Positions 231 through 28,290 of a stretch of 64,000 bases of DNA are shown here, in pieces. Origin of the DNA: Pseudomonadota bacterium (GTDB lineage Bacteria > Pseudomonadota > Gammaproteobacteria > Acidiferrobacterales > Acidiferrobacteraceae). A model generated the notes under the pieces. It was not told the DNA's origin. It made no database searches and worked only from the letters and a program-made list of their open reading frames with translations. The position numbers were made by a program, and so were the translations under genes. Positions within the stretch are counted from its first letter, which is position 1. Every line of letters begins with the position of its first letter. The stretch spans positions 1 through 64,000 of the forward strand of contig JAJYRD010000017.1 in NCBI GenBank assembly GCA_021794275.1, read 5' to 3'.

Positions 231-989
231 TCAGCGGTCACGGCCAAGCCGCCTTCGTGGCGCCCGCGCGCCTCTCTCTCGTTCCTTGCGCCGCAACCGC
301 ACCCGAAGCCATGGGGGTTGATAGTTCCCGAAGGGGCGCGCAGCCAACGCCCGCAGGGCGAGCCGCCCTTGCGAAAGACGGGTTACGACCCCGCGCCCTC
401 CAAGCGCGCAGGCCGCGGCAAGCGCACCCACGCTGTTCTGGTTTGGCGTTATGCCGTCCACCACGCCTTGACGTTCGCAGTGCCGCCGCCACAGGGCGCG
501 TAGCGTGGCAGCCGTCATTCCCTCGGGCGATGGCCTTTCTGGCAGCTTCGAGCCCTGGGTCCCCATCCAAGGGGGGCTTACGAGGGCGTGGGCGTGAAGG
601 TTCCGCTCCCGATCGTAATGGATGGACCAGTCGACGGCGCGCCCCTGCGCCACGAACGCTTCCTCAAGGAAGCCCCGGACGAAGGCCGCATGCGCGAGCA
701 AGGGCCGGCCGCGGGGGAGCCCCATGATGATCTCGCGGGCAAGGCCCACGCGGCCCCATGGGCCCCCGGACTCCACCGAATTCCATAGCCGTTCCGGATC
801 GACCAACCCCCCTGGGGCCCCTGTGGGCAGGACGATCTGCGACCACGCGAGACCGGGGCGGCCGGAAAAGTCGTACCCCCTCGCGCGAGCGCTATCATAA
901 AGCCGCCGTCGCCCGCCGTAGGCGGCACGGGCCACGACCCCCGGTCCTCGGTCCGTCCGCAGTCGTCGTAGAGAAAGGACAGGTATCAC
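231..989 (-). CDS. MobA/MobL-type relaxase (short form)
   Basis: This is a likely DNA-nicking relaxase that starts conjugative transfer by cutting at oriT. The 252-residue protein shows a three-histidine HUH metal site, with His124 followed by His132 and His134 in the stretch RERNLHAHALV. This matches the MobA/MobL family. The start is a GTG at 989 with only a weak GGGG upstream. The length covers the relaxase domain alone, with no helicase or primase extension, and the arginine-rich C-terminus may bind DNA. It is divergent from the coupling-protein gene at 1065, so the two probably share a control and transfer region. No mating-pair-formation genes are visible, so it is either a mobilisable-element remnant or the edge of a larger element extending beyond base 1. 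The N-terminal tyrosine/histidine arrangement is not fully clear to me. Confidence 0.75.
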   Translation of the reverse strand: MIPVLSLRRLRTDRGPGVVARAAYGGRRRLYDSARARGYDFSGRPGLAWSQIVLPTGAPGGLVDPERLWNSVESGGPWGRVGLAREIIMGLPRGRPLLAHAAFVRGFLEEAFVAQGRAVDWSIHYDRERNLHAHALVSPPWMGTQGSKLPERPSPEGMTAATLRALWRRHCERQGVVDGITPNQNSVGALAAACALGGRGVVTRLSQGRLALRALAARPFGNYQPPWLRVRLRRKERERGARAPRRRLGRDR

Positions 990-1064: not shown

Positions 1065-2681
1065 ATGCCTGTCGATCCCCGCGCATGGGCCCGTGCTTTA
1101 CGTAGCCGCGCGCAGCAGAGGCGCCTGCGGGCCTTGCTCGACTTGGGTGAGGAACTCGAGGCGCGCGGCCTGCTGGACGAGGCGATTCGCTTGGCGGCCG
1201 CCCGGGGAAGACCCGCGCCGCCGTCCGCGTGTCCCGATGCGTCCCTACCCGCGCCCTGGAACCGAGAGGAGGGGGCGGTTCTTGGAAGGCCGGTCGCGCA
1301 GAGAGGCCCGCGCGAGCGCGCGTTTGGCGCGCTTCTCGTCTTTTATACACCGCTCGCGCTGCTTTTGCGTATTTTGAAACCGCGCGGTCGCACCACCTCG
1401 CGCGCCTCCCGCGGGGCGCGCCTGTGGCTGGGTGCGGCCGAGGGCCTGCTGCATCGTCGTGGGGCCTGGCAAGACAAGGGCCGTCGGCCTCTCGTGCTCG
1501 ATGCCGCGGACCTCGGCCAGAACCTGCTCGTCTTGGGCGGCATAGGCTCGGGCAAGACGACTTCCGTCATTCAGCCGGCCCTGCTCCAGTGCCTTGCCCA
1601 AGGCATGGGCGGCCTCTTGTTCGACATCAAGGGGGACTTTGGCATCGCCGCCGCAGCCCTCGCCAAGAGGACTGGACGGGAACTTGTCGTCATAGGGCCC
1701 GGACGTCGCGCCTTCAATCTCCTGCGCGGACTCACCCCGGAGGCCGCCGCGGGCTTCCTGAAGTCCGCCCTCTTGCTAAACGGCGCGCCCGGCGATCCGT
1801 TTTGGACCGAGACTGCCGTGGAACTCTGTCGCAACGCCTTGGGCGTGCTCTCCTTCCTGCCCGATCGCTACAGCCTGGCCGGTCTCTACGCCTATCTTTT
1901 CCAGGATGACGCGCGCGCCGAGTGCGACCAGAGATTGCGCGACGAGGCCGCAGGTCTCGCCCCCACGGCCTTGAGGCTACTGCGCGGCTACCAGTCTTAC
2001 CACGAAGGCGTCTTCACGCGCTTCGATGCCAAGGTCGTGGCCGGCGTCCTCGCGAGCGCAGCCCAGGTCCTCACCCCATTCACGCACCCCGATCTCATCG
2101 ACGCCTTCTGTCCGCCCGCCGATGCCGTCGCCATCGAGACCCTAAGCGCGGGCGCGGTCTTCCTCGTGGATCTGCCACTTGCCGTCTGGGGGATAGGCGC
2201 CAAGGTCATCTACACCTTCATCAAGCTCCGATTCTTTCAGTACATGCAAAGGCGTCCGGTGGCCGAACGTTCGCGCCTCGTCCTGTTTCTGTGCGATGAG
2301 TATCAGGAGATCGTAAGCGCCAACAAAGACGGGCTCTCCGATCTCAATTTCTGGGACAAGGGCCGCGCCTTCGGCACGGTCGGTATCATCTCCGCGCAGT
2401 CGATCGCGAGCTTCTACGCGGCCTTGGGCGATCGCGATCTCGCCGACACGCTCTTGCAGAATTTTCGCCAAAAGCTCTGCTTGCGCACCGAGGACTGGCA
2501 TACCGTGCACTTCTTTGAACGCCTTCTCGGGCGCCCAGCGGACCGAACACGGCGCCCGCGCCCGCTCGTGCCAGCGGCGCTCATGCGGCGGCTTTATCGG
2601 CGCCAGGCCTTGGCCGTGGTCTCGGTAGGGGGAGAGGCCGTTGAAGAGATCGTCGACCTGCCAGCCGTGTTCGTCGATTAG
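1065..2681 (+). CDS. VirD4/TraG-type conjugative coupling ATPase
   Basis: This is a type IV coupling protein that would link a relaxase-DNA complex to the secretion channel using ATP. The 538-residue product has a Walker A motif GGIGSGKTT at about residues 158-166 and a Walker B-like LVLFLCDEY near 404-413 (Asp411, Glu412). There is one probable membrane segment near residues 88-106. ATG 1065 is preceded by AGGAG with good spacing. The QSI..FY.AL and TLLQNFRQK stretches fit the C-terminal core of the TraG/VirD4 family. It is divergent from the relaxase, which supports a mobilisation module. There is no other type IV secretion gene nearby. The next gene, AsmA-like, is 59 bp downstream and functionally unrelated, so the element border probably lies between them. 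Confidence 0.85.
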   Translation: MPVDPRAWARALRSRAQQRRLRALLDLGEELEARGLLDEAIRLAAARGRPAPPSACPDASLPAPWNREEGAVLGRPVAQRGPRERAFGALLVFYTPLALLLRILKPRGRTTSRASRGARLWLGAAEGLLHRRGAWQDKGRRPLVLDAADLGQNLLVLGGIGSGKTTSVIQPALLQCLAQGMGGLLFDIKGDFGIAAAALAKRTGRELVVIGPGRRAFNLLRGLTPEAAAGFLKSALLLNGAPGDPFWTETAVELCRNALGVLSFLPDRYSLAGLYAYLFQDDARAECDQRLRDEAAGLAPTALRLLRGYQSYHEGVFTRFDAKVVAGVLASAAQVLTPFTHPDLIDAFCPPADAVAIETLSAGAVFLVDLPLAVWGIGAKVIYTFIKLRFFQYMQRRPVAERSRLVLFLCDEYQEIVSANKDGLSDLNFWDKGRAFGTVGIISAQSIASFYAALGDRDLADTLLQNFRQKLCLRTEDWHTVHFFERLLGRPADRTRRPRPLVPAALMRRLYRRQALAVVSVGGEAVEEIVDLPAVFVD

Positions 2682-4923: not shown

Positions 4924-5046
4924 CATACCATATTCGCATGGCGATGGAGTTCGCCACGAACCGCCGGCCGACGGCTGATGACTCCTACGGGTTCCGCTTG
5001 CGAGCGGAGTGCTTGTTACGTGTGAGGTCATGAGGGGCTGGCGCGT

Positions 5047-5994
5047 ATGACGACCCTGGCACCGCCTGTGCTGCAAGTCGGTCAGGTCCTGGCCATACTG
5101 CTGCTCTCCCCATTGCTCCACGGTTTCCTGGTCACCACGGAAGAGCGCGTCCAGCGCGGAACCGGGCCCTCCGTTCTCCAGCCTTATCGCGACTTGTGGA
5201 AATGGTTCCATAAGGAATCGGTTGTACCGGAGACCGCTAGCTGGTTGTTCTGGGCCGCGCCCTTCGTTGCGTTCACGGCCATGCTGATCGTCCCGATGTT
5301 GATTCCGGTGCTTACCAACTACCCGCTGCCTTTGTCCGACATGGGTGACATCCTGGGCGGCGGGCTGGTGCTTACGCTCGCGGGGTTCTCGCTCCTGCTC
5401 GCCGGTCTCGATACCGGACACCCTTACGGGGGCCTGGGCTCGAGCCGCGAGACCATGCTGACCATCCTCGCCGAACCGACCTTGATCCTTGTGTTCGTCG
5501 GCATCACCCTGCTCGCTCGGGCCATGCTGCCGTTCGTGGTCAACCATCTCCTGGTCGCGGAGCCCGCCGTGTACTGGTCACCGGCGCACCTGTTCCTGGT
5601 GGCCGCCTTCTTCATCCTGCTGACCGTCGAGACCGAGCGCCTGCCGATTCACTCGAGCATTCCGTGGGAGGTCTACATGATCGGCGAGGCCCGCATCCTC
5701 GAATATTCGGGTCCGCTCCTGGCGCTGCTCCGCTGGGCCTCATGGATGAAGCAGGCCATTCTCTACACGATATTTCTCAATGTGTTGACCATCCCGTGGG
5801 GCCTGTCGGCGCAAGGCACGGCGCTTGGCATTGCGGCGAGCACGGTCGCGCTGTTCGGCAAATGGATGCTGGTCGCGCTTCTCATGGTTGGCGTCGATAC
5901 GGCGCAATCGCGATTGCGCTTCTACCGCTACCAGGAGCCCTTGGCGCTGTCCTTCCTGCTCTCGCTGCTCGCCATCGTCGCGTACCAACTATGA
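5047..5994 (+). CDS. HyfC/HycD/NuoH-like membrane subunit
   Basis: This is the membrane subunit that links the soluble redox module to the ion-translocating arm in group 4 hydrogenases and complex I. Its 315 residues have about eight hydrophobic segments. The loop RETMLTILAEPTLILVF and the charged IPWEVYMIGEARILEYSGP stretch match HyfC/HycD, where conserved Glu residues form part of the quinone or proton path. ATG 5047 follows AGGGG. It is the first gene of a tight operon with hyfE-, hyfF-, hyfG-, hyfHI- and hyfB-like genes. Because the large subunit downstream lacks Ni-Fe ligands, the partner reaction is unlikely to be hydrogen production. Confidence 0.88.
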   Translation: MTTLAPPVLQVGQVLAILLLSPLLHGFLVTTEERVQRGTGPSVLQPYRDLWKWFHKESVVPETASWLFWAAPFVAFTAMLIVPMLIPVLTNYPLPLSDMGDILGGGLVLTLAGFSLLLAGLDTGHPYGGLGSSRETMLTILAEPTLILVFVGITLLARAMLPFVVNHLLVAEPAVYWSPAHLFLVAAFFILLTVETERLPIHSSIPWEVYMIGEARILEYSGPLLALLRWASWMKQAILYTIFLNVLTIPWGLSAQGTALGIAASTVALFGKWMLVALLMVGVDTAQSRLRFYRYQEPLALSFLLSLLAIVAYQL

Positions 5995-6004
5995 GGACGC
6001 TGCC

Positions 6005-6685
6005 GTGTTGATCTTTCATCTCGACCCTCTCGTGGCCTCGTGGTTCAGCCTGCTCGTGATCGTCGCGCTGACGCTGTCTTTCGTGATGCTGGGTTCGCAC
6101 TGGCTGAAGAACCACATCTGGGCTTTCGCCGCCGAGTCCTGGGTTATCGCGGCGTTATCGATAACGGTTGGCGCGTATGGCCATTATCCCCAGCTCTATG
6201 CCATCGCCGGACTCACCATAGTGGTGCGAGGGCTGTTGCTCCCCCGTATGCTGCTGCGCATCGTTGGGGATTTGAGCGTGGAGCGCGAGATCCACTCCCG
6301 CTTGAGCGCGGCGCGAAGCCTGGTGTTGGGTGTCGCCTTGGTCCTGTTCTCTTATGAGGTTGCGGCGCATCTCGGTGGACAGCTCGGTCTCGCCGACAAC
6401 ATCGCCGTCATGGCCTTGATGGCCATGTTTGGGCTCAAACTGATCGGCTTTTTGATGATGATGCTGCGCACGGAGGCGGTGAGCCATATCCTGGGCCTTT
6501 TGCTCATAGAGAACGGGATATTCCTGGGCTCGCAGATCCTCGTTCCAGGCATGCCCTTACTTCTTGAGCTCGTCATCCTGTTCGATCTGCTCCTGATCGT
6601 GAGCACCTTCGGCCTGCTCACGCGCTACCTGAAGACGCATGTCGGCAGCACAAGTTCGCGCGACCTGCAGCGGCTTGTGGGATGA
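6005..6685 (+). CDS. HyfE-like membrane subunit (NuoK-like C-terminal half)
   Basis: This is a small integral membrane subunit of a Hyf/Ehr-type complex. About 226 residues are predicted from GTG 6005, chosen because GAGGA lies just upstream inside the stop region of the previous gene; TTG 6008 is an alternative. Six to seven hydrophobic segments are visible. The sequence LLIENGIFLGSQILV is the hallmark NuoK/HyfE glutamate-containing helix. The end overlaps the next start by four bases, so translation is probably coupled. Confidence 0.8.
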   Translation: MLIFHLDPLVASWFSLLVIVALTLSFVMLGSHWLKNHIWAFAAESWVIAALSITVGAYGHYPQLYAIAGLTIVVRGLLLPRMLLRIVGDLSVEREIHSRLSAARSLVLGVALVLFSYEVAAHLGGQLGLADNIAVMALMAMFGLKLIGFLMMMLRTEAVSHILGLLLIENGIFLGSQILVPGMPLLLELVILFDLLLIVSTFGLLTRYLKTHVGSTSSRDLQRLVG

Positions 6686-8160
6686 GCGGCATGCCGTCGC
6701 CCCTGTCCGCCATTACTTTGATCCTGGCCGCTCCCGCCGCCGTCATCCCGCTTTCGCTGGCGATTGCGCGACCGCGGTGGGCCGAATACCTCAATTTGGC
6801 CGCCGCGCTGCTTGTGTTCGTGTTCGGCGCACCGTTGCCATGGCGCATCCATGGAAGGCTCGTATGGGGGCACGGCTATCTCATGATCGACCCCTTTGGG
6901 GCTTGGGTCACTCTCTGCACGGCCGCGGTCTACCTGCTCGCCTCGCTGTATTCGATCGGCTATCTGCGGGGCATGACCGGCGTGCGCCACATTCTGCATC
7001 GCTACTACGCCTTGTTCGCCGCCTTCGGCCTCACCATGCTGCTTGCGCCACTACAGAACAATCCGGGGCTCTATTGGATATGTGTCGATCTCACTACCAT
7101 CGTAAGCGCCTTTCTCGTGGGGTTCCAACGTGAACCCGAATGCATAGAGGCGGCATGGAAATACATCGTACTGGTCTCGGCGGGCCTGTCTCTGGCCCTG
7201 CTCGGCACCGTGTTGTTCTATTGGGGCGGGACCTTCACGCTCGGCCCGGCTTATGCCATGACCTGGCAATCGCTACGGGCGGTCGCGCCGCATGTCGCGC
7301 CGCCCCTGTTGATCCTCTCGTTCCTCCTGGTGCTGATAGGCTTCGGCACCAAGGTCGGGTTGGCGCCCATGCACACTTGGCTTCCAGACGCGCATAGTGA
7401 AGGTCCCGCGCCGATATCGGCCATGCTCTCCGGGGCTCTGCTCAACTGCGCCGTGCTCGGTCTGGTGCGTTATCTTGGTGTGCTCGAGCACGCGGGCCTC
7501 GGCGCCTTTCCGCACATGCTGCTGATCGTTTTCGGTCTATTTTCCTTGTTGGTGGCCGCGCTGTTCATCACCCGCCAGACCGGGGCCAAGCGCCTCATGG
7601 CCTATTCGAGCGTCGAGCACATGGGCGTGGTGGCACTTGGCTTTGGGTTCGGCGGACCGCTCGGGGTCGCCGGCGCGCTCTTCCATATGTTGAACCACAG
7701 TCTCAACAAATGCCTGATGTTCTTCGGCGCCGGCAATATGATGCACGCCTATGGCAGTAAGGACATGCGCGCCATGCGTCGAGTGGGAGACTACTTTCCG
7801 GTCACCGGGACCCTCTGGCTTGCGGGCGCCGTGGCAATTACCGGAACCCCGCCTTTTGCCTTGTTCCTGAGCGAGTTCACCATCCTGCGCGCGGGGTTCT
7901 CCACTTCACAATGGTGGGCCGCGCTTGGGCTGGGGGTGCTGCTCATCGTCATCTTCGTCGGCTTTCTTGCCCATTTCCGGCGCATGTATTACGGCGCGGC
8001 CCCAGGTCATCCGCCCCACGGCACCGTCAGCATCTGGCAGACCGCCCCTATGTGGTTGAGTCTCCTGCCTTTGCTCGTGCTTGGCCTGTGGCCGCCACAC
8101 AGCCTCTGGACGCTGTTTCGGCACATAGCGCTCGGCATCCGCGTAGGTGGTGCGCCGTGA
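6682..8160 (+). CDS. HyfF-like proton-conducting subunit (NuoM/NuoN family)
   Basis: This is an antiporter-like subunit expected to move protons or Na+ across the inner membrane. Its 492 residues form about 14 hydrophobic helices. The family motifs are visible: GFGTKVGLAPMHTWLPDAHSE (key Lys and His/Asp), then YSSVEHMG and HMLNHSLNKCLMFFGAG. ATG 6682 overlaps the hyfE-like gene and the end overlaps the hyfG-like GTG start. Two such antiporter-like subunits are encoded in the operon, the other at 10544, as in Hyf and in Ehr complexes. All recognisable proton-path residues appear kept, so pumping is likely intact even though the catalytic subunit is altered. Confidence 0.88.
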   Translation: MSGMPSPLSAITLILAAPAAVIPLSLAIARPRWAEYLNLAAALLVFVFGAPLPWRIHGRLVWGHGYLMIDPFGAWVTLCTAAVYLLASLYSIGYLRGMTGVRHILHRYYALFAAFGLTMLLAPLQNNPGLYWICVDLTTIVSAFLVGFQREPECIEAAWKYIVLVSAGLSLALLGTVLFYWGGTFTLGPAYAMTWQSLRAVAPHVAPPLLILSFLLVLIGFGTKVGLAPMHTWLPDAHSEGPAPISAMLSGALLNCAVLGLVRYLGVLEHAGLGAFPHMLLIVFGLFSLLVAALFITRQTGAKRLMAYSSVEHMGVVALGFGFGGPLGVAGALFHMLNHSLNKCLMFFGAGNMMHAYGSKDMRAMRRVGDYFPVTGTLWLAGAVAITGTPPFALFLSEFTILRAGFSTSQWWAALGLGVLLIVIFVGFLAHFRRMYYGAAPGHPPHGTVSIWQTAPMWLSLLPLLVLGLWPPHSLWTLFRHIALGIRVGGAP

Positions 8161-9653
8161 GCGCGCGGGAGGTCGTCGACGTCGAGGCGCGGGCGCTGCC
8201 CGGGCTTGTGCAAGCGGTCTTCAGTGATGCGCATTCCCGTACACCTTGCCCGCGCATGCAGATGGCCTATGCGATCCAGAATGGAGGCGCGCGCGAGGCC
8301 CGCTACCTGCTCTCCCTTGGCGCCGGAAGGCCATTCACGGAGTGGCGTGTTCCCGCCGAGGGGCCGCTGCCCTCGCTCGCGCACCAGCTACCGATGTTGT
8401 CCTGGTACGAGCGCGAGATGGTCGACCTTTTTGGCATGACCTTCGAAGGGCATCCCCATCCGCAGCCCTTGGTGCTGCACGAAGGGGTGAAATGTCTCGC
8501 GCCGCCCATGGTGGGGGCCGTCTCTGAGGCGCCGCTCGATTACCCACCTGTCGCAGCTTGGACGCCGACGCTAGACAATCCGGCCATCCAGCATCTGCCG
8601 TTTGGACCGATACGTGCCGACGTGGTCGAATCCGCCGAGTTCCAGTTCCTCTACATTGGCGAAAACATCCTGCATTATCACCCGCGCCTCTTCTGGAAGC
8701 ATCGCGGCATGGAGAAACGCTTCGAGGGCTGCGCGTGCGTGCCGGCCGTGATCCTCGCCGAGCGCGTTTCCGGCGTGGGCAGCCTGGCGCACGCCTTGGC
8801 CTACTGCCAGGCGGTGGAAGACGCGCTCGTAGTCGAGGTTCCGGAGCGTGCCGGCTACCTGCGCCTGATCCTGGCGGAGCTTGAGCGCCTCTATAACCAT
8901 CTGCACTACTTCGGCCACCTCTGCCAAACTACGACGCTCAAGGTGGGCGAGGCCCAAGGTCTACTGCTCGAGGAGCAGGTCAAACAGATCATCGGTCGCC
9001 ATACCGGAAGTCGACTGCCGCGCAACCTGCTCGTGCCCGGCGGCCTGCGTCGCGATCTCGACCTGGCGGGCCTTGATGGGGCGTTACGCGCGCTGGCACC
9101 CCTTATAGACTCCTATCTGCGCCACATGGAAAGGACGCGCAGTCATCTCGACCGACTCATCACCACGGGCCCCCTGACGCGCGAGCTCGCCTATGATCAG
9201 GGCGCTACGGGTCCCGTCGAACGCGCCTCGGGCATCGATCGCGACGCCCGCCGTGACCACCCTTACGCCGCCTATGCTGCGCTGCGTGTCGATGTGCCGG
9301 TCGAGGAGGGCGGTGACGCCTATGCCCGTGCGTGCGTCCGCGGGCGCGAGCTGAGAGCGTCGCTCGGTCTGATCCATCAGGCGTTGACGCGCCTCAAGCC
9401 TGGCGCCATCCGCGCGCCCCTGCCCCCGGTGATGGCCGGCGCCGAAGGTCTCGGCTGGGCGGAGTCTCCTCGGGGAACGCTCCTTTACGCGGTATCGTTC
9501 CGGGCCGACGGCCGGCTTGCGCGGGTCAAGATCAAGTCACCGTCCTTTTCCAACTGGCGCGTGTTTCCTTACACGGTCCATGACAGCAATATGATGGATT
9601 ACGCCATCAACGAAGCGAGTTTCGGCATCACCGTGGCCGGGTGCGACCGATGA
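8157..9653 (+). CDS. HyfG-like large subunit without Ni-Fe cysteines (Ehr-type)
   Basis: The N-terminal part resembles the NuoC-like domain (LPMLSWYEREMVDLFGM) and the rest resembles the [NiFe] hydrogenase large subunit/NuoD. The protein is 498 residues from GTG 8157, whose start overlaps the previous stop. In real group 4 hydrogenases the first ligand motif reads RICGIC; here residues 203-209 read RVSGVGS, so both cysteines are gone. The surrounding text (SLAHALAYCQAVED, PERAGYLRLILAELERLYNHLHYFG) aligns well. The C-terminal DPCxxC motif is also missing: the protein ends in ITVAGCDR with a single Cys496. This is what is known for energy-converting-hydrogenase-related (Ehr) complexes. Catalysis of H2 chemistry is therefore not expected, and quinone or another substrate may occupy the site. 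Confidence 0.88.
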   Translation: MSAREVVDVEARALPGLVQAVFSDAHSRTPCPRMQMAYAIQNGGAREARYLLSLGAGRPFTEWRVPAEGPLPSLAHQLPMLSWYEREMVDLFGMTFEGHPHPQPLVLHEGVKCLAPPMVGAVSEAPLDYPPVAAWTPTLDNPAIQHLPFGPIRADVVESAEFQFLYIGENILHYHPRLFWKHRGMEKRFEGCACVPAVILAERVSGVGSLAHALAYCQAVEDALVVEVPERAGYLRLILAELERLYNHLHYFGHLCQTTTLKVGEAQGLLLEEQVKQIIGRHTGSRLPRNLLVPGGLRRDLDLAGLDGALRALAPLIDSYLRHMERTRSHLDRLITTGPLTRELAYDQGATGPVERASGIDRDARRDHPYAAYAALRVDVPVEEGGDAYARACVRGRELRASLGLIHQALTRLKPGAIRAPLPPVMAGAEGLGWAESPRGTLLYAVSFRADGRLARVKIKSPSFSNWRVFPYTVHDSNMMDYAINEASFGITVAGCDR

Positions 9654-9762
9654 ACGCCTCGCCTCTGCTGTTCGGCGCGTTCCGCCGGCAGGCGCCGGGA
9701 TCCTGCCGCGCCGTCGGCGGGCGGCAGGCCGGAAACGCCCACCCCCGCACAGGAGAAGCACC

Positions 9763-10557
9763 ATGCCTTTCTGGACCTTGATGGGTTTGCGCGCCGGACG
9801 CGCCACCACTCGCTGGCCCCTGGGCGAAGGCCCGGACGGACAGGATGGCGTGGTGGGGATGCCGCGATTGCATAAGGAAAGGTGCGTCCCCCACTGCGCC
9901 GAGTGCGCGGACATCTGCCCGAGCGGCGCCCTCGGTCTTCGGAACAACCACGACATCACCCTCGACTACGCCCGCTGCATCGCCTGTCAGCTGTGCGTCG
10001 AGGCCTGTCCGCACGGGACCCTCGAGACCACCCGCGATTGGGCCCTCGGTACCTGCGACCGGGCGGCGCTGCAGAGTGACGCAGGGCCCCGCGAGGGGCA
10101 TGCGCGGAAGGCCATCGAGCGTGCCTTTGGTAGGAGCCTGCATGTGCGTCATGTCGACGCCGGCTCCTGTAACGGCTGCGAGTCCGAGATCCAAGCCCTG
10201 AACAACCCTTTCTATAATTTGCATCGCCTTGGCGTCTTTTTCACCCCCTCGCCGCGTTTCGCCGACCTGTTGCTGGTTACGGGCCCGGTCACGCGTGCCA
10301 TGCGCGCGCCGCTCGAGGCCACCTACGCCGCCCTGCCCGAGCCGCGGTGGGTGATGGCCGCCGGCACCTGCGCCACCGGTGGCTACAACGGTGGCGGCTA
10401 TGCGTGTCATAACGGTCTCGAGGAGATCCTGCCCGTCGACCTCTGGCTGCCGGGCTGTCCGCCCAACCCGGCGGCCTTTCTCGATGCCCTGCTTGTGTTG
10501 CTCGATCGCCGGCCGCCCTGGGCGGCTGCGGAAGGAAACTCCCATGGGGGCGATTGA
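9763..10557 (+). CDS. Ferredoxin-small subunit fusion (HyfH + HyfI/NuoB-like)
   Basis: One 264-residue protein combines two electron-transfer subunits that are separate in E. coli Hyf. Residues about 35-95 hold two [4Fe-4S] motifs, CVPHCAECADICPSG and CIACQLCVEACPHG. The second half is NuoB/HyfI-like, with DAGSCNGCESEIQ, AAGTCATGG and LPGCPPNP supplying four cysteines for the N2-like proximal cluster. So the electron wire is intact although the active site in the large subunit is not. ATG 9763 follows an AGGAGA sequence. A 44-codon frame starts at 9650, overlapping the previous stop, and ends just inside this gene; it may only couple translation. Three bases of the stop lie inside the next gene. 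Confidence 0.88.
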   Translation: MPFWTLMGLRAGRATTRWPLGEGPDGQDGVVGMPRLHKERCVPHCAECADICPSGALGLRNNHDITLDYARCIACQLCVEACPHGTLETTRDWALGTCDRAALQSDAGPREGHARKAIERAFGRSLHVRHVDAGSCNGCESEIQALNNPFYNLHRLGVFFTPSPRFADLLLVTGPVTRAMRAPLEATYAALPEPRWVMAAGTCATGGYNGGGYACHNGLEEILPVDLWLPGCPPNPAAFLDALLVLLDRRPPWAAAEGNSHGGD

Positions 10558-12565
10558 CGCCACCTCGTTCTGGTTTGCCCTCGCCGCAAGCCTGTGGGTC
10601 GTTGCCGCCGTGGCCGCCCTGTTCGGCGGGGCCGCGCGCCTAGGCCGTCTCCTGCTCGCCTGTGGTGCCCTCGCGAGCGCCGCGGGCGCCGCGCTCGGTA
10701 TCATGCACGGGGGCAGCGCCACCGCGACGCTCGCCTCATTAGGTGGCTTCCGGGTTCGTTTTCGCTTGGACGTGGCGGCCCTGTGGTTGATCGGCTGGTC
10801 GATGCTCCCCGCGGGCTGCGCGGTCCTCTTGGGCGGGGCCCGGGCGCGCCTCCCATGCGCCGATACGCCCGGTGGACCCCAGCCGCGGCGCTGGGTGTTT
10901 GGCGCCGCGTTGGGGTTGCTCGGCGCCCTGGGCGTCTTCGGTCTGCGCGACAGCGCCGCGCTTTTCATCGCCTGGGAGGCCATGACGCTCGGCGGGGTCT
11001 TGATCCTGCTCGCGGACTGCGGTGACGATGCCGGAGGGCGGGCGGGATTTTTCATGCTCACCCTGCTCGAAATCGGCGCAGGGGCGCTGCTCCTCGCGCT
11101 CGCCGCGCTCAGTGTGTCGGGCCAGGGTTTTGCCGCCATCGCAGCCCGTCTGCATGCCCTGGGCTTCTGGCCGACCCTGATGCTCGACCTGCTCATCATA
11201 GGAGGCGCTGGCGCCAAGCTCGGTCTGCTGCCTTTCTACGAGTGGTTCCCCGACGCCTATGGGCAGGCCCGTGGCAGCAGTGGGGCGCTGTTCTCCGGCC
11301 TGTTCCTAAACGCCGCCTGGTTCGTGCTCGCCCGTGCGCTGCTGGACTGGACGCCGTCCGGTGCGGTGGCGATGATCCTCGGCGTGATCCTCCTCGTGCT
11401 CGGCACGATGTCGGCCATCCTTTCCATTCTCTTCGCGCTCCAGGAAGACGACTGGCGCAGGCTGCTTGGCTATTCCACGGCGGAGAACGCGGGCATTGCG
11501 GTCGTGGCCTTGGGGGCGGCACTGATGTTTCGGGCCCAGGCCTTGCCCGAGCTCGCCGCACTCGCGTTCCTGGTGGGGCTGATCCACCTGGCCGGACATG
11601 CGCTCGCCAAGGGTGCTCTGCTCTTCGCAGCCGACGGCGTGCACGAATCCACCGGCAGTTTCGCTATCGCGCCGCGCGGTTTGCTGCGCCGCGCCCCCGC
11701 AACCTTGGGTTTGGGGGCGATCCTGGCCGGCATGAGTCTCGCCGCCATGCCGCCGACCACGGGCTTCGTCAGCGAGTGGTATCTCTTTCAGACGATCTTT
11801 CACGACTTCGCCCTTCACACCCAGGGCGCACGGATCGCGCTGGCCCTGGCCGGCGCCGGGGTGGCGCTCACGGCGGCGCTCGCGTTGGCAACCTTTGTGA
11901 AGATCCTCGGGGTGGGGCTGCTGGGTCCGGGCAGTCCGGGCGCCGTGCCGCCATCGCGCCGCTACCGGCTGGCCACGCTCATCAACGGACTTGCCGTGCC
12001 CACGCTTGCGCTTATGCTCATCTGGCTCTTGCCGTGGCTCGCAGCCAATCCGTGGCCCCGTCTGCTAGACCGCGCGGCCCCCGCCCTCGTGCACGGCGCC
12101 CTGCTGGTCCCGCTCAGCGCAGGTTTCGCTTTTATTTCCCCCGTCATGTTGGTGGTCGTGGGCCCGCTGCTCGCGCTGCCGGCCGCAGGTGTCGTGTGGT
12201 TTGCCATAGGCCGGCGCGGGATCAGGCGTGTGCCGCTCTGGAGCGGCGGCCTGCCCGTGACGGCGCGCAGCGCCACCACGGCGCTCGCCTTCTCCAACGC
12301 CATGCGTGTGTTCTATGGCTTCATCTATCGCCCCAGCACCACGACGCGGAGAGACTACGGTAGCCGCCGCTACTTTGTTCAGGCGTTACGCTTCGAGTAT
12401 GCCCAGTCCGCGATCTTCACGCCGCTGCTCTTCCGTCCCGCCATGGCGCTCATAGCCCGCCTCGCGCGAGGCTTTCGTCGTCTCCAATCCGGTTTCCTGA
12501 ACGACTACCTGTCCGTGCTGGGGTTTCTGCTCATCGCGGTCTTTGCCGTCGTGTTCTTTTACTGA
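10544..12565 (+). CDS. HyfB-like proton-conducting subunit (NuoL family)
   Basis: This is a large antiporter-like subunit of 673 residues, predicted from ATG 10544 inside the end of the previous gene. Family features are the FIAWEAMTLGG helix, GGAGAKLGLLPFYEWFPDAYGQ (conserved Lys and acidic residues), GYSTAENAGIA and HLAGHALAKGALLFAADG. A long C-terminal extension with further helices and a charged FIYRPSTTTRRDYGS loop fits HyfB, which has a lateral amphipathic arm. It closes the operon after the redox subunits, an order unlike E. coli hyf, where hyfB is first. Confidence 0.85.
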   Translation: MGAIDATSFWFALAASLWVVAAVAALFGGAARLGRLLLACGALASAAGAALGIMHGGSATATLASLGGFRVRFRLDVAALWLIGWSMLPAGCAVLLGGARARLPCADTPGGPQPRRWVFGAALGLLGALGVFGLRDSAALFIAWEAMTLGGVLILLADCGDDAGGRAGFFMLTLLEIGAGALLLALAALSVSGQGFAAIAARLHALGFWPTLMLDLLIIGGAGAKLGLLPFYEWFPDAYGQARGSSGALFSGLFLNAAWFVLARALLDWTPSGAVAMILGVILLVLGTMSAILSILFALQEDDWRRLLGYSTAENAGIAVVALGAALMFRAQALPELAALAFLVGLIHLAGHALAKGALLFAADGVHESTGSFAIAPRGLLRRAPATLGLGAILAGMSLAAMPPTTGFVSEWYLFQTIFHDFALHTQGARIALALAGAGVALTAALALATFVKILGVGLLGPGSPGAVPPSRRYRLATLINGLAVPTLALMLIWLLPWLAANPWPRLLDRAAPALVHGALLVPLSAGFAFISPVMLVVVGPLLALPAAGVVWFAIGRRGIRRVPLWSGGLPVTARSATTALAFSNAMRVFYGFIYRPSTTTRRDYGSRRYFVQALRFEYAQSAIFTPLLFRPAMALIARLARGFRRLQSGFLNDYLSVLGFLLIAVFAVVFFY

Positions 12566-12678: not shown

Positions 12679-12999
12679 ATGTCCACCGTCAAACTGGTCC
12701 GCATCTATTTCAAGGAAGGCGAGAAAACCAAAGATCACCATAACCTGATGAAGGAGCTGCTTCATTTCCTGCACGACGAGCATAAGGTGCGCGGCGCGAG
12801 CCTGTTTCGCGCGGTCGCGGGTTTCGGCGCCCATGGCGTCGTGCACGCTGACGATCTGCTGCGTCTGAACGTGCATCTTCCGCTGATCCTCGAGGTGTTC
12901 GACGACCCCGACGTCATCGATCGGATCATGCCACGCCTGCGCGAGCTTGTGCCGGCCAAGCACATCATTTGTTGGAAGGCGGAGATCGCTGACGCGTAG
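12679..12999 (+). CDS. DUF190 family PII-like protein
   Basis: This is a 106-residue soluble protein of the DUF190 family. The core VKLVRIYFKEGEK, then GASLFRAVAGFGAHGVVH and LPLILEVFDDPDVIDRIMP, matches DUF190, whose members fold like PII signalling proteins and form small oligomers that probably bind a nucleotide or anion. GGAGGG lies upstream of ATG 12679. It is 113 bp after the hyfB-like gene, so it could be in the same transcript and might sense the energy state for the complex. That link is inferred from position alone. Confidence 0.8.
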   Translation: MSTVKLVRIYFKEGEKTKDHHNLMKELLHFLHDEHKVRGASLFRAVAGFGAHGVVHADDLLRLNVHLPLILEVFDDPDVIDRIMPRLRELVPAKHIICWKAEIADA

Positions 13000-15334: not shown

Positions 15335-16612
15335 TTAAGCCGCGAACAGTCGTTCGGCGAGGAACTGCGCCGCATCCAGACCCCAGGGCGGGATTTTCCC
15401 CTGGGTCCGGAAAAAGAGATCTTTGTACTGCATCTTCAATAGATACGGTACCCGCCCCATCTTCAAGACCTGCGTGTCCCCCCCATACCAGGAATTGGAG
15501 CGGATGTAGAACGCCTGGTTGTTGCCCATGTCTCCTATGCAGTACACGACGGGCTTCAAGGGTTCCGATGCGGCCGCGTCGCCGATGCGCCCGAGGTCCC
15601 GGGCAATCTGTTTGCCCACGATCTCGCTCTCCTGGTGTCCTATGGCCCCAAGCTTGGGCACGGTGACTGCGGCGGCGTCTCCGCAGGCCAGGATCTCGGG
15701 GTATTTGGGGTTACGCATGAGCATGTCTGTGACCACGAAGCCCTCTTCGTCGCATATGGGCAGCCCCTTCATGAACGGGTGTGGCACCCAGTCCGGAAGC
15801 AGGATCTTGAGCTCCGCATCCAGCGCATCCCCCTGCGTGAACCGCACGCCGTCCCGCGTGACCTCGGCGATGTCCCCTACGTTGTTGCGGTAATGAAATC
15901 CCATCTGGCTTGCGATGCCAAGAAGCGAATTGACCACCTGTTCCCCAGCATCCTCGGCAATCATCTTGCCAGGCGTGAAGACCGTGATCTTGTCGGGGCC
16001 GCCGAGCCCGTGATTCTTGAGCCAGGTAGCCATGGACAACATGATCTCGACCGGGGGGCCCTCGCAGGCGGCGTCCGCCATAGGCACGAGATCCTTGACG
16101 GCAGTGCCCTGATGGAAGCGGGCCGACCCGACCGCGATCGGACCGCCCTTGTATTGGCCCCCGAAGAGCGTCCTGCGCAGCTTGTTTCCGTAAAAGGTGT
16201 CGGAGGCGGCGTGCGCGTATCGCGCGAAGCCTGGGATCTTGTCATAGGCGAGCCGGCAGCCGAACGCGATGACGAGGTAGTCGTAGCCCATGGTCTCGGA
16301 CGGCGCCCCCTCGCGCTCCTTGGGCGTAAAGTCGACGGTCCGGGTGTCGGGGTTGATGGCCCGTACTTCGCCCTGGATGAAGGTCGCCTGCGCGTCAGTC
16401 AACGCCCGCGAGGTGTCCATCTTGAGCGTCGTCGCCGGATCGCGGCCCTCGAAGACCTCGGCCGGGATGTTCGGTATGAAGAGGAGATAGGGGTTGCGGT
16501 CGATCACGGTGATGTCGACCGCATCGCCCGCGTATTCACGGACCTTCTGGGCGCTCGCGAGTCCCGCGAAGTTGCCGCCGAGCACGAGGACGTGGGGTTT
16601 GTTTGATGTCAT
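15335..16612 (-). CDS. SQR-like FAD oxidoreductase
   Basis: This is a 425-residue pyridine-nucleotide-disulfide-type flavoprotein resembling sulfide:quinone oxidoreductase. The FAD motif is VLVLGGNFAGLASA (residues 8-21). The second nucleotide half ends in YPEILACGDAAAV. Cysteines lie at 119, 183 (AACEGPPVEI), 287, 310 and 358 (VVYCIGDMG). Cys183 and Cys358 fit the two catalytic positions shared by SQR-like enzymes. I see no cysteine in the 128-equivalent stretch, so a classic three-cysteine type I SQR is less likely. No helix for deep membrane insertion is obvious, but the C-terminus LPYLLKMQYKDLFF could bind the membrane. It is ten bases downstream of sor. It probably oxidises sulfide or a persulfide made by SOR and reduces quinone. 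Confidence 0.78.
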   Translation of the reverse strand: MTSNKPHVLVLGGNFAGLASAQKVREYAGDAVDITVIDRNPYLLFIPNIPAEVFEGRDPATTLKMDTSRALTDAQATFIQGEVRAINPDTRTVDFTPKEREGAPSETMGYDYLVIAFGCRLAYDKIPGFARYAHAASDTFYGNKLRRTLFGGQYKGGPIAVGSARFHQGTAVKDLVPMADAACEGPPVEIMLSMATWLKNHGLGGPDKITVFTPGKMIAEDAGEQVVNSLLGIASQMGFHYRNNVGDIAEVTRDGVRFTQGDALDAELKILLPDWVPHPFMKGLPICDEEGFVVTDMLMRNPKYPEILACGDAAAVTVPKLGAIGHQESEIVGKQIARDLGRIGDAAASEPLKPVVYCIGDMGNNQAFYIRSNSWYGGDTQVLKMGRVPYLLKMQYKDLFFRTQGKIPPWGLDAAQFLAERLFAA

Positions 16613-16622
16613 GTCGGATCTC

Positions 16623-17588
16623 CTAGCGAACGAGATGGTCCCGCCACGTACCTTCCTCCATCATGGAGGCGAAGAGCATGTAGTAGGGGCCGCGGTTGAT
16701 GTGGGCGAGTACGCCCTGGTCGTGGATACGGCGCGCCTCGACGTTGACGAGAACCTTGCCCAGGCCCTGGTGGGCAAGTTCCGCGGCCTCCCACTCCATG
16801 TGCACGAAGTATTGAGTGGGCGTGGCCGGTGGGATTGGCGGGTGGTCCAGGGGTTTGTCGCCGTAATTGGTGGCGTATTTCGGAGGGTTGGCCCCGAGTG
16901 TCGCCTTGGTCATGCCTTCGGGGTCGAGCTGAAACGACCCGATCGCCGATACCCCGATCTGCTTCAAAAGCATCCATCCGAGCATGCCGGGCGCATGCGC
17001 CATGAGCCAGCCCATGGTAGCGCGCACCCCTTGTTCGAAATCGTCCTCGTGGCCATGCATCACGCTATGATCGCCGAGGGCTATCACGCGGTTGGGTAGG
17101 GCGAGCTTGGGCACCGGCTTCTGCGCGGCCGCCCGTCCCATCATGAGCGCCGGCACATCGGTAAGCCCGATCGAGGGCGGCAGGTCCGAGGCGACGATCT
17201 CGTAAAGCGGCTCCCAGGGGCCTTCCACCACCATCGCGAGACAGTGGGAGCAGAGCTCGTAGATGGTATCGAACTGGAGATAGTGCATCTCCTCGTGTGA
17301 TCGCGCATCCTTCCACACCGTGTACTGAAACATCCCGATCGGGTTCAGCGTCTCGCGCATATCAAGGGCGCCGCCACCGTAGCGCCCGGCCATGGGATGT
17401 ATGCCCACCTGCAGGAGTTGGTCGAAGCCGAGAAAGCCTGGATGGGTCGCGGTCGTGATGCACACCTTGGGCCCGACCTTGTGCATGGCCTCGTAGCTCT
17501 CCGGGCGGTTCGCGATCCGCGCCATATTGATGGCGATGATCGGGTTTTGCGCGCCGGCACCTAGTGTCGGGGCCGCTGTTCCGGGCAT
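16623..17588 (-). CDS. sor: Sulfur oxygenase reductase
   Basis: SOR disproportionates elemental sulfur with oxygen to sulfite, thiosulfate and sulfide in the cytoplasm, without cofactors other than mononuclear iron. The 321-residue product has every expected ligand. His98, His102 (SHEEMH) and Glu126 (GPWEP) match the iron site. Cys43 (KVCITTATHPG), Cys113 and Cys116 (CSHC) match the pocket cysteines. All six sit 12 positions later than the archaeal Acidianus numbers I recall (31, 86, 90, 101, 104, 114). The shift reflects a short N-terminal extension. GGAGGAC precedes ATG 17588. It is first in an operon with the SQR-like and helical genes. SOR is known in acidophilic archaea and a few bacteria such as Acidithiobacillus and Acidiferrobacter relatives. 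Confidence 0.95.
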   Translation of the reverse strand: MPGTAAPTLGAGAQNPIIAINMARIANRPESYEAMHKVGPKVCITTATHPGFLGFDQLLQVGIHPMAGRYGGGALDMRETLNPIGMFQYTVWKDARSHEEMHYLQFDTIYELCSHCLAMVVEGPWEPLYEIVASDLPPSIGLTDVPALMMGRAAAQKPVPKLALPNRVIALGDHSVMHGHEDDFEQGVRATMGWLMAHAPGMLGWMLLKQIGVSAIGSFQLDPEGMTKATLGANPPKYATNYGDKPLDHPPIPPATPTQYFVHMEWEAAELAHQGLGKVLVNVEARRIHDQGVLAHINRGPYYMLFASMMEEGTWRDHLVR

Positions 17589-17973
17589 GGCGTCCTCCGT
17601 GATGCGATCAAGTAGGTAAGCATAACGCGATCGCCGCCGGCCCCCATCCGACGCAGGCCGCGCCCCCTGCCAGGGGACCCGAAATTGTTTGCTCCGCGGA
17701 GCCGGTCGCGGCAGGCGTCGTCAAGCCAGAGGCCAGCGGCGGGCCTCGGCCGCTCAGGGCCCCCTCGCCACCCGAGGCGCGTCGAACGCCGACGAGGGTG
17801 CACGAGGCCCCGTGAGTTTAAGCGCCGGGCGAGGCGAGGGCTCGATGTCTCGCCTATCGCGGTATCCGCCAGGCGTCGCTCGGATCGCAAAAAAGGCGTT
17901 GTCGAGCAGGGGGGGCGCGGGTGCCCCATCGTGGGTCGCAAGCGCGTCTATACTGGAGGGGGAAGGAGGAAAT
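17589..17973. other. Divergent intergenic region upstream of sor and the beta-oxidation operon
   Basis: This 385-bp gap separates two divergent operons. The plus-strand frame stays open through it, but no ribosome-binding site or family resemblance supports coding before ATG 17974. A TATACT element near 17948 could be a -10 box for the fusion gene, with a weak -35. It likely carries both promoters. Confidence 0.4.
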
Positions 17974-20900
17974 ATGGGCCAGGGACCCGAGGTTGTGATC
18001 GTAGGCGCGGGACCGGCCGGCATAAGCGCCGCGTTACGGCTCGCGCGGGCGGGCGGCCGGGTGCTGGTCCTCGAAGGCGCGGAATTCGCCGGCGCGGAGA
18101 ATTGGTCGGGCGGCGTCTATCATGCCGAACCCTTGTTGCGTGAAGACGTCTTAGGCGTCCGCGAATGGGAGCGCGCACCACGCGAACGGCGCATCGTCGG
18201 GCGCTCCCTGTTCGTCCATGGCGGCGACGGCTGCGCCGGATTCGAGGCGCGGGCGGTGACGGGCAACGACTACGGCGAGGCATGGACCGTACTGCGTCCC
18301 AAACTGGACCGCTATCTGGCGAGTCGCGCCATCGCTTACGGGGCCACGCTCCTGCCGCGTACCGCGGTTACGGGCTTGCGATTCCGGGACGGGCGGGTGG
18401 TCGGGGTCGACACCGCGCGCGGGCCGGTCGAGGCGCCCATCGTGTTTCTGGCCGAGGGTGATGCCGCGGGTCTGCTCACGCGCGCCGGGCTCGAGCGCCC
18501 GATCGTCCATTATGCCCAGGGGATCAAGGCGGTGTTCACGCTGCCTGCCCACGACATCGAGGCGCGATTTGGCGTCGGCGCTGGCGAGGGCATTGCCCAG
18601 GAATGGTTGTTGCGCAACGGAATCTGGAGGGGACGCACGATCCCCTTGAACACCACGGGTTTCGTGTACACCAACCGCGATAGTGTGTCGGTGGGACTCG
18701 TGCTCCCGCTCCAGTCTCTCGCCGAGGAGAGTCCGGTCGACCACCCCCAGCTCTTGCGCCGTTTTCTGTGCCTGCCGGAGGTTGCCGCCTTGCTCGAGGG
18801 CGCCACCCAGGTGGCCTATGGGGCCAAGGTCATACGGTCCGGAGGCCTGCGCGAGGGGGTAGTGGGCGTTTATGACGGGCTTGCCGTCGGCGGCGCCTCC
18901 CTGGGTCTCGGGCTCGAATTTCCTTACCCGAATTTCATGGGGCCTGCCGCTATGTCGGGGGTCGCCTTCGCCGACGCGGTGCTCGATCTGCGCGGGCGCG
19001 GCGACTATTCGGCGGCGGCCTTGGCCGAGTCCTATGGGGGTCGGCTACGCCAGAGCACCGAATACCAAAACGCGCGTTTTGCCGCCGCCTGGCCCGAGGC
19101 CCTGCACGCAAGCCCTCTCGTCTTCGACCATCTCCCGGCCCTCGTGGGCTCGGTGATGGCCGGCCGCGCGGCGCATGCGCGGGCGGCCGCGCGTGCCACA
19201 CTATCCGTCCTGCGCGATCGCGCCACGCTCGCGGCGGCAGCCACCGTGCCGCGCGCGGCTGTTAAGACCGACAAGCCGCCGCTTACCGTGACCTTCCTGC
19301 GCGGCGACGGCGGCCGCCTCACGCCGGTAGACGGCACGGGGCCATTCCTTGCGACGCTCGCCCGCGCTCTCGGTTATTTCTACGGGCGCTCGCTGCCGCT
19401 GCTGGAGACCCGCTTGGCCGCGGCTATCCCAGAGAAGGTGCGCTCGCTCGCCGCGCGAGCGCTGGCACGGGGCGCGGGACTTGCCGCATCCGGGGGCGTG
19501 GGTTTCCTGAGCGACGCGGCCGTGGCTGCGGCTGCGGGGCGCTCGAGCCTTAAGGGCGTGGCGTTTTATCGTGCCGAGCGGGTGCTGCGGGTCCGTCTCG
19601 CCCTCGATGGGAGCCCTGCCGATTCTCCCATGGCGTGGCTCGCCCCTTTGGGGCGCCCTTCGCCGGAGCGGCGACACATCCATGTCCCGCGCGACCTCCC
19701 GCCGGACGCGGCCCAGCGCCTGCGTCGTGTCTGTCCCGCCGAGGTCTATAAACCGGGAGGGGCGGCCGGCGGTGCGTGGGCTACATTCGAGAATTGCATA
19801 AAATGCGAGTCATGCCGAATCGCGGTCCGGGCCGTGGACTGGCGCCGCACCGACGGCCATGGGCTCATCTACGAACTGCCTGGAGCCCGGCGCTTCGGGC
19901 TCGATGGAAGCGTCACCTGCGACTTTGCCGCGCGCCCCGCCGGCTCGCAAGAGGATGAGGTCCTGCGGGGGCTCGCCGCGAGTATCGCGACGAGACCCGT
20001 AGCGCCAGGCCCCGTGTTTCGCGACACCATGCGCGAGGCCCTGATCGCCGCGCGCCCGCCGGGGCTCGAGCGCCTGCTTCGGCTCTGGGATCTCGGCGCG
20101 CACGGGGCCGTGCATGACGCACTCCTGGGCCGCCTCCCACGGACCCGCCCAAGCGTGCCCCTCGCGGATATCGAAACGAGCACGAGGCGCGCCCTGCGCG
20201 AGGCGGCGGCTGCGCTCTTTCCGGCTTCGCGTCTGGCCGCCATGACCGAGGCATGGACCGAGGATGATCGCGTCGATCTCGCGCGATTTTTGCGCAGTCG
20301 CCGGGCCTCACCCGAGGATCTCCTGGCGGCTCTTGCGGAGCACGACACCGGACTTGGCTTCGTCGCCATGCACCACTTGCTCGCCGAGGGCAGGCGTGGG
20401 AAACACCTCACGCACCTTAGCGCTGATCTTTGGCGCGAAGCCGATGGCCTGTCCCCGTGGTTTCCGGACGTCGGCGCCGATACGGGGGAGGGGGCAGCCC
20501 TGTTGAATGCGATCGGCGCGCAACGGGCCGTCGGCCTCGATGTCGCGCGCTGCGTCCGTGTCCCTGCCCCGCGGGGCGCGCCGCTTCTGGTCGACGCCCT
20601 GTTCGCCCGTTATCTGATCGCGCTCATGGAAGGGTTTGGCGAGGCGCTCGGGGCGCGCGCCGAGGCCCATGCCAGGGCACGCGTCCAGTTTGCCGGCGGC
20701 TATCGCGATCGCGACGGTGCGGATGCCGTGATCAAGTTCGGCGCGGTCAAGCGTCTGCTCGCGGTCATCGAGTACGCGCTCATGCTTGCTCATCGTCTCC
20801 GTGGCTGGTGCGATCGTAAGCCGCAGGCCGTGGTTGCGTTGCTCAAGGAGCGCTTTGGTGTCTCCCAGGATGGGGTCGCATGGTGCGCGGGTCAGGTATT

Positions 20901-24972: not shown

Positions 24973-26261
24973 GTGCCAAGGTGTTTATTGTGGATGGGGC
25001 GCGGACGCCGTTTCTGAAGGCGCGCGACGAACCCGGGCCGTTCAGCGCCGCGGATCTCGCGGTGATGGCCGCGCGCGCCCTCTTGGCGCGTCAACCCTTT
25101 GACGCGGAGGAGCTCGACGAGGTGATCCTGGGCTGCGTCATCGCCGCCCCCGACGAGGCCAATATCGCGCGCATCGTTGGTCTTCGCGTGGGCACTGGCT
25201 TTGCGGTCCCGGCCTATACGGTCCAGCGCAACTGCGCCTCTGGGCTCCAGGCGGTGGCGAGCGCATACGATGACATCCGGTCAGGACGCGCCCATCTGGT
25301 GCTCGCCGGGGGCGCTGAGGCCATGAGCCGCGCCCCCATCCAATGGAACATGGCCATGAGCCGGTGGCTCGCGCGCCTGTATCGCGCCAAGACGCCAGTC
25401 CGACGCCTGCGGGCGCTCGCTGATTTCCGCATGGGGCATCTGCGGCCGGTGTTTTCGCTTCTGCTCGGTCTGCGCGACCCGGTGGTGGCGCTGTCCATGG
25501 GGCAGACGGCTGAGATCGTCGCGCATCGCTTCCATATAGGACGGCTCGCGCAGGACAGTTACGCCTTGCAGAGCCATCAGCGGGCGGCGGCGAGTCAGGC
25601 CGACGGGCTCTTGCGGGACGAGATCGAACCCCTGTACGGCTCGCGCGCCGACAGTTATGGCCAAGACGATGGGGTGCGCCCCGACACCGACCCAGAGAAG
25701 CTCGGCCGCCTGAAGCCTGTATTCGATCGGCGTTTCGGAGGCGTGACCTCGGGTAATAGCTCGCAGATCACAGACGGCGCGGCCGTTCTTGTGCTGGCAA
25801 GCGAGGCTGCGGTAAAACGCCGGCGCCTTTCGGTGCTAGGGGAGATCGTGGACCATGCCTGGGCAGGCGTGGACCCCGCGCAGATGGGGCTTGGGCCGGT
25901 GCATGCCACTGCCAAGCTCTTGCGCGCCCACAAGCTTGGCATCGGGGATCTGCGTCACGTGGAGCTGAACGAGGCGTTCAGCGCCCAGGTGCTGGCTTGT
26001 CAGGCCGCGTTCGCGAGCGAGGCCTACGCGAAACAAGAGCTCGGACTCGACGCCCCCTTGGGCGCGATCGACGCCGCGCGCCTGAACCCCCATGGGGGCG
26101 CGGTGGCCATCGGCCACCCGGTTGGTGCCACAGGTGCCCGGTTGGTCTTGCATCTGGCGCGCTCCTTGCGTGACGAGCCGGGGGCGCTCGGGCTTGCGAC
26201 CTTGTGCATAGGCGGGGGCCAGGGAGGAGCCATGCTCATACGGGGGGGCGGCGCATCATGA
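24969..26261 (+). CDS. Thiolase (acetyl-CoA acyltransferase, FadA/FadI type)
   Basis: This enzyme cleaves 3-ketoacyl-CoA with CoA in the last step of beta-oxidation, or runs in reverse. The 430-residue protein has the acyl-accepting Cys89 in QRNCASGLQAV, His375 in NPHGGAVAIGHP, His383, and the proton-shuttling Cys413 in LCIGGGQGG. ATG 24969 overlaps the stop of the fusion gene by four bases, so translation is coupled. The position next to the FadJ-type gene and the length of its loop region point to the long- or medium-chain FadA/FadI group rather than biosynthetic PhaA. The chain-length specificity cannot be read from the sequence. Confidence 0.93.
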   Translation: MSAKVFIVDGARTPFLKARDEPGPFSAADLAVMAARALLARQPFDAEELDEVILGCVIAAPDEANIARIVGLRVGTGFAVPAYTVQRNCASGLQAVASAYDDIRSGRAHLVLAGGAEAMSRAPIQWNMAMSRWLARLYRAKTPVRRLRALADFRMGHLRPVFSLLLGLRDPVVALSMGQTAEIVAHRFHIGRLAQDSYALQSHQRAAASQADGLLRDEIEPLYGSRADSYGQDDGVRPDTDPEKLGRLKPVFDRRFGGVTSGNSSQITDGAAVLVLASEAAVKRRRLSVLGEIVDHAWAGVDPAQMGLGPVHATAKLLRAHKLGIGDLRHVELNEAFSAQVLACQAAFASEAYAKQELGLDAPLGAIDAARLNPHGGAVAIGHPVGATGARLVLHLARSLRDEPGALGLATLCIGGGQGGAMLIRGGGAS

Positions 26262-28282: not shown

Positions 28283-28290
28283 GGATCGCC

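Follow-up and report, generated by a model that had tools for sequence, protein, structure and literature searches.

What does a Hyf-like operon do when its large subunit has lost the ligands of the [NiFe] site? This question is raised by six co-directional genes, mostly overlapping or closely spaced, at positions 5047-12565 on the plus strand of a 64,000-nucleotide stretch of DNA, referred to here as the window (positions 1 to 64,000 of contig JAJYRD010000017.1, here C38), from a Pseudomonadota bacterium of the family Acidiferrobacteraceae (GCA_021794275.1, here G000; 2.68 Mb in 89 contigs, 92.7% complete). From the comparisons presented below, the operon probably encodes a fluoride-induced, cysteine-less, energy-converting complex of the Ehr type, and the complex almost certainly belongs to the fluoride-stress response. 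The fluoride riboswitch at 4931-4994 and the DUF190 gene at the 3' end of the operon were overlooked in an earlier note made from the sequence of the window. The features concerned are the following.

4931..4994, plus strand: fluoride riboswitch aptamer (RF01734, crcB motif; cmscan 62.5 bits, gathering score 34, E 1.1e-14)
5047..5994, plus strand: NuoH/HyfC-like membrane subunit (PF00146, 101 bits; conserved acidic residues common to HyfC and NuoH)
about 6005..6685, plus strand: HyfE-like membrane subunit with a GTG start (NCBIfam NF008556, hydrogenase 4 membrane subunit, E 1.9e-13)
6682..8160, plus strand: HyfF-like antiporter subunit (PF00361, 177 bits)
8157..9653, plus strand: large subunit, NuoC-NuoD/HyfG-like, with a GTG start and without the NiFe cysteine ligands (PF00346, PF00329, PF00374)
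9763..10557, plus strand: HyfH-HyfI fusion with two [4Fe-4S] ferredoxin motifs and an N2-type NuoB domain (PF01058, Fer4)
10544..12565, plus strand: HyfB-like antiporter subunit (PF00361, 101 bits)
12679..12999, plus strand: DUF190 protein at the 3' end of the operon (PF02641, COG1993; Pfam 79 bits)

The aptamer is situated 52 nt 5' of the first start codon of the operon. Its pseudoknot helix was paired in 100% of 20 homologues, with compensatory changes on both sides in two of the five pairs, and this signal was lost when the structure was slid by one to three columns. Judged from the sequence, control of the operon by the fluoride aptamer is well supported. Only two fluoride riboswitches were found in the whole source genome, the second (C6:25216-25278) being located 123 nt 5' of two tandem crcB (Fluc) genes, and the riboswitch-marked fluoride loci of this genome are therefore an exporter pair and the Hyf-like complex. 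The tandem crcB genes (G000:C6:25401-26507) probably form a heterodimeric Fluc channel.

The association extends well beyond the source genome. A scan of the GTDB species genomes found 190 relatives, and the best 80 of the 190 loci were studied. These 80 are spread over Acidithiobacillia, alpha-, beta- and gammaproteobacteria and Acidobacteria, with carriers in Acidithiobacillus, Thiomonas, Rhodopila, Methylocapsa, Dyella, Frateuria, Pollutimonas, Paraburkholderia, Halothiobacillus and Acidobacteriaceae and in many metagenome-assembled genomes (MAGs) from acid mine or soil, and the six-gene order was kept in nearly all complete loci among them. Closer to the source genome, the complex, with a large subunit 57-90% identical, was present in other genomes of its genus, in one genome (G015) from a second genus of the family and in one (G026) from a second family of the order. 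The riboswitch was found upstream in 10/10 of the genus, family and order genomes with upstream DNA, the source genome included. For a wider count, a riboswitch model (R1) was built from Rfam-called hits and the DNA upstream of NuoH-like starts was searched by a script, which found the aptamer at 63 of 69 starts, three of the 69 belonging to a tandem copy of a different cysteine-less clade (class 3, see below). All 66 starts of the fluoride-linked clade, called class 1 here, had a riboswitch, 62 by the script and four by inspection. In two of the inspected cases (L060 and L069) the reading frame, taken at its longest, runs into the aptamer, and in the other two (L067 and L094) it precedes a leading crcB gene in the same direction. 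The riboswitch was confirmed with Rfam at all six loci that were re-tested.

No riboswitch was found at 26 loci of the sister clade (class 2, see below), where a single partial match of 21.5 bits was judged to lie inside a gene, nor near about 71 other Hyf-like places (E < 1e-60) in 398 Pseudomonadota genomes, where the closest pair was about 58 kb apart. This even draw of 398 genomes is a control and not an estimate of prevalence, because class 1 was found in it only in the source genome. The neighbouring genes of class-1 loci of at least 12 kb (n = 63) were also compared with those of the sister-clade loci (n = 26). Both crcB and DUF190 were neighbours at 44/63 against 0/26 loci (p 1.7e-10 for each), enolase at 21/63 against 0/26 (p 0.0003) and MutS at 14-16/63 against 0/26, figures that come from related, not fully independent loci and speak only for the chosen genes, because the query set was partly drawn from fluoride islands. 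In the window the DUF190 gene begins 113 nt past the six-gene operon, and it has the same position in those related operons of the order that reach that far. The 3' end consists of crcB and then DUF190 in several related operons; in the window only DUF190 is found and crcB is missing there.

In Burkholderia and Caballeronia the complex is carried on plasmids, one of which was typed as conjugative. Two annotated Burkholderia copies are found in islands that also hold crcB, inorganic diphosphatase, MutS and DUF190, accompanied by ChrB, Cfa and phosphoglycerate mutase on one island and by a ClC-type channel on the other, and at least seven fluoride riboswitches lie within 25 kb in each of these islands.

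The large subunit reads ERVSGVGS at the site where HycE and HyfG of E. coli have DRVCGICG, and its C-terminus is ASFGITVAGCDR, where the E. coli proteins have GSLDPCYSCTDR. This motif comparison bears out the earlier note, in which the subunit was said to read RVSGVGS and to end without DPCxxC. All four NiFe ligands were gone in 80/80 relatives, which have motifs of the ER[VI]SG[VI][GD]S type and an EASFGLTxAGxx tail and neither of the two NiFe CxxC motifs. Relocation of the ligand cysteines to another part of the protein, named in that note as a finding that would speak against it, was checked by alignment and rejected, because no cysteine was invariant across 81 sequences (best columns 78-79%); the one cysteine left near the C-terminus is displaced by a single position and not conserved. 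The absence of hyp maturation genes, claimed for the window, holds genome-wide, with no match to HypD in the 92.7% complete source genome nor in six related carrier genomes. No C-terminal extension like that of HycE was present in the large subunit, and no match to FdhF, the formate dehydrogenase H partner, was found, either in the 80 loci or in those of the genus.

The quinone-site residues of NuoD are likewise replaced at the aligned positions, the histidine of GPxH by Arg153 and the tyrosine of RIEYLGG by Gly, so that the large subunit is not simply a quinone reductase minus the NADH module. That module (NuoEFG) is found neither among the operon genes of the window nor in the conserved gene order. 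The clade has an acceptor site of its own, with arginine for the GPxH histidine, Ser/Gly for Cys or Tyr positions and the tail INEASFG. The Fe-S clusters and the pumping subunits are intact, as had been read before: 12/12 Fe-S cysteines of the HyfH-HyfI fusion were conserved at 99-100%, and the two PF00361 subunits are of the antiporter-like (Mrp/NuoL) type with conserved Lys/Glu. In the HyfF-like subunit Lys224, Lys303, His339, Lys343 and Glu398 were conserved, and the acid of transmembrane helix 5 was Glu or Asp in all sequences; Glu145, Lys225, Lys356 and Glu411 were invariant in the HyfB-like subunit, as were E170 and E189 in the HyfE-like subunit, which are the same in E. coli HyfE.

In the phylogenetic analysis the fluoride-linked large subunits formed one clade (45/45; Shimodaira-Hasegawa-like approximate likelihood ratio test, SH-aLRT, 100), with class 2 (43/43, 100) and the small class 3 (4/4, 99) in clades of their own and HycE, HyfG and NuoCD of E. 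coli apart, in a tree of these sequences that has long branches, was made by a quick method and is unsure in its deep joins. An AlphaFold2 model of the large subunit (predicted local distance difference test, pLDDT, 81; predicted template modelling score, pTM, 0.87) was most similar to HycE of formate hydrogenlyase (FHL; 7z0s_E, Z 41.1, root-mean-square deviation 2.9, 482 residues, 28% identity), followed by NuoD/NuoCD of complex I (Z 36-38). No claim on the pocket is drawn from the model because the C-terminal 23 residues and residues 150-159, the parts nearest to the pocket, are of low confidence.

With the Hyf and Hyc systems of E. coli the complex shares the subunit types HyfB, C, E, F, G, H and I. 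However, it is without the NiFe cysteines, Hyp proteins, HyfD and formate dehydrogenase, and it has the HyfH-HyfI fusion and the riboswitch. The core fold and the pump residues are those of respiratory complex I (NuoBCDHIKLMN), from which the complex differs in the absence of NuoEFG, the replaced quinone-site His/Tyr and the hydrogenase-type C-x2-C N2 motif. Class 2 (RVSGDST...NKSFNCSYSGxD; L035-L040 and L171-L190), which is common in Pseudomonadota and shows no fluoride link, is another cysteine-less Hyf-like complex with a similar subunit set and large subunits about 31-37% identical. It differs in the gene order HyfB-HyfC-HyfE-HyfF-large-NuoB, in a NuoB that is not fused to the ferredoxin, and in having no riboswitch, crcB or DUF190 nearby. 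Class 3 (ERFAGAS...ATWGLSVAEND) adjoins the class-1 operon in Acidithiobacillus and one Acetobacteraceae MAG (L113 19490-21067, L115 19490-20776, L125 18924-20501, L093 1-1400), and the copies in L125 and L093 each have a fluoride riboswitch of their own. In strain FRM of Enterobacter cloacae the operon ppaC-uspA-eno-gpmA-crcB is likewise under a fluoride riboswitch, and knockouts showed that the genes under its control confer resistance to fluoride (PMC5533749); no Hyf-like complex was reported there.

Ehr complexes, described from Geobacter sulfurreducens and Margulisbacteria as relatives of group 4 without Ni-Fe ligands and with antiporter-like subunits, have been discussed together with formate metabolism (PMC6349859, PMC7894505). 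The present complex likewise has large and small subunits of the group-4 type without NiFe ligands. Its clade, in contrast, is tied to fluoride riboswitches. The Ehr assignment of the earlier note therefore stands as far as a relative of hydrogenase 4 and complex I without Ni-Fe is concerned. It does not stand in the sense of an unspecific hydrogenase-complex I link without a functional lead, since the riboswitch is found clade-wide, DUF190 accompanies the operon and the large subunits form a single clade.

The proposed mechanism would begin with the binding of intracellular F- to the leader, by which the operon would be switched on. Low-potential electrons, perhaps from a ferredoxin-like donor, would pass through the two [4Fe-4S] clusters of HyfH to the N2-type cluster and would end at an acceptor in the remodelled pocket, which could be a quinone or another small molecule, while protons would be exported through HyfB, HyfF and the HyfC/HyfE channel. 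It was reported that entry of hydrogen fluoride (HF) acidifies the cytoplasm and that export of F- depends on the proton-motive force (PMC11139923, PMC3755343). HF entering an acid-exposed cell would release H+ and F-; the pump would then clear H+ and keep the inside negative, so that F- would be driven out by the CrcB (Fluc) channel. The parts of this proposal differ in strength. Outward pumping driven by a redox reaction is favoured by a narrow balance, a donor of the ferredoxin type is suggested tentatively, and a quinone as the acceptor more tentatively still.

Several points weigh against the reading of the operon as a fluoride-induced proton pump. Its role under fluoride is deduced from genomic patterns. 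There is no electron-donor module encoded near the operon. Transport in either direction would fit the conserved pump residues, and the direction, like the redox reaction, is inferred. No T-run terminator or expression platform of the terminator type was seen downstream of the aptamer, and ON-control of the operon would therefore rest on the usual behaviour of the riboswitch family. Finally, the putative enrichment of the carriers in acidic habitats is judged from their names.

Among the other explanations, the one that survives best, unlikely as it is, holds that the complex is mainly a cation/proton antiporter, possibly exchanging Na+ for H+ to correct cytoplasmic pH as Na+/H+ antiporters under fluoride riboswitches do, or that it runs in reverse, using the proton-motive force to reduce a low-potential acceptor and thus provide reductant for damage repair. 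After fluoride exporters, Na+/H+ antiporters are the genes most often found with the riboswitch (PMC11139923), two antiporter-like subunits are present in the membrane arm, the direction is left unfixed by the sequences, and MutS pairs are frequent among the neighbours. However, the strict conservation of the 12 Fe-S cysteines and the remodelled pocket implies electron transfer, and reverse flow would use up a proton-motive force already depleted by fluoride.

It is considerably less probable that the complex is a fluoride-insensitive stand-in for a fluoride-sensitive respiratory step and not a defence of pH or potential. Enzymes that fluoride inhibits, among them enolase and diphosphatase, often have spare copies in fluoride islands, but here no replacement of a homologous fluoride-inhibited enzyme is known, and the source genome retains a NuoD at C88, a sign of a separate complex I.

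It is very improbable that the complex is a formate hydrogenlyase or [NiFe] hydrogenase that fluoride induces to shift metabolism towards fermentation. Formate hydrogen lyase has been named among the genes behind crcB/fluoride riboswitches (Weinberg et al. 2010, PMC2864571; 2024 review, PMC11139923), the 2024 review treating it as an enzyme of anaerobic fermentation, and HycE of the E. coli FHL is the best match of the large subunit in both sequence and structure. This identity was nevertheless rejected on the lost ligands with no invariant cysteine to replace them, the absence of HypD from seven carrier genomes and of FdhF relatives from the 80 loci, and the missing HycE-like extension. Least probable of all is a generic Ehr complex of unassigned function with a riboswitch incidental to one genome, which the abundance of cysteine-less Hyf-like complexes without a fluoride link in Pseudomonadota would allow but which was rejected because the riboswitch link holds across the whole clade in two phyla, also at loci without crcB nearby, and is absent from the sister clade.

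Other genes of the window lie on both sides of the operon. Just 5' of it are a MobA/MobL relaxase (231-989, minus strand) and a TraG/TrwB-type coupling protein (1065-2681, plus strand), as also in G003, which suggests a mobilisable element. Downstream, a sulfide:quinone-reductase-like flavoprotein (15338-16612, minus strand) adjoins a sulphur oxygenase reductase (16626-17588, minus strand; PF07682, 432 bits), both being genes of sulfur oxidisers. A frame of 2427 amino acids (17689-24972, plus strand) reads as a single chain of an FAD oxidoreductase resembling electron-transfer flavoprotein (ETF):quinone oxidoreductase, a ferredoxin-like stretch, an acyl-CoA dehydrogenase and an ETF-alpha domain, and heads a beta-oxidation set of thiolase (24837-26261), FadB-like protein (26204-28282) and ligase (28279-29958); G003 holds a frame of this type with 85% identity over the part seen. 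The flavoprotein, the sulphur oxygenase reductase and the ETF/acyl-CoA fusion were set aside because related loci are without them, save the near-identical G003/L046.

That Hyf-like genes occur with fluoride riboswitches is known in outline, and no paper was found that joins an Ehr-type complex to fluoride, apart from mentions of 'formate hydrogen lyase'. The genes so named in the literature would be those of class 1. What is new is their identity as one cysteine-less clade that is not FHL, the near-obligate link to the riboswitch and the suggested mechanism. Class 1 is likely to be a clade of complex I and hydrogenase-4 relatives specialised for fluoride resistance, a redox-driven H+ pump expressed under fluoride and powering F- export, for which 'formate hydrogen lyase' would be a misnomer. 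The interpretation of these riboswitch-associated genes in terms of fermentation is affected as well, as the genes described here cannot encode a hydrogenase of a known type.

To our knowledge, no substrate or trigger of Ehr complexes has been known so far, and with fluoride an Ehr-type clade would gain a specific inducing signal and a testable physiological role. Acidophiles meet the strongest entry of HF, so that a dedicated proton pump would be physiologically plausible in them, and such a pump may matter in the bioleaching of fluoride-bearing ores.

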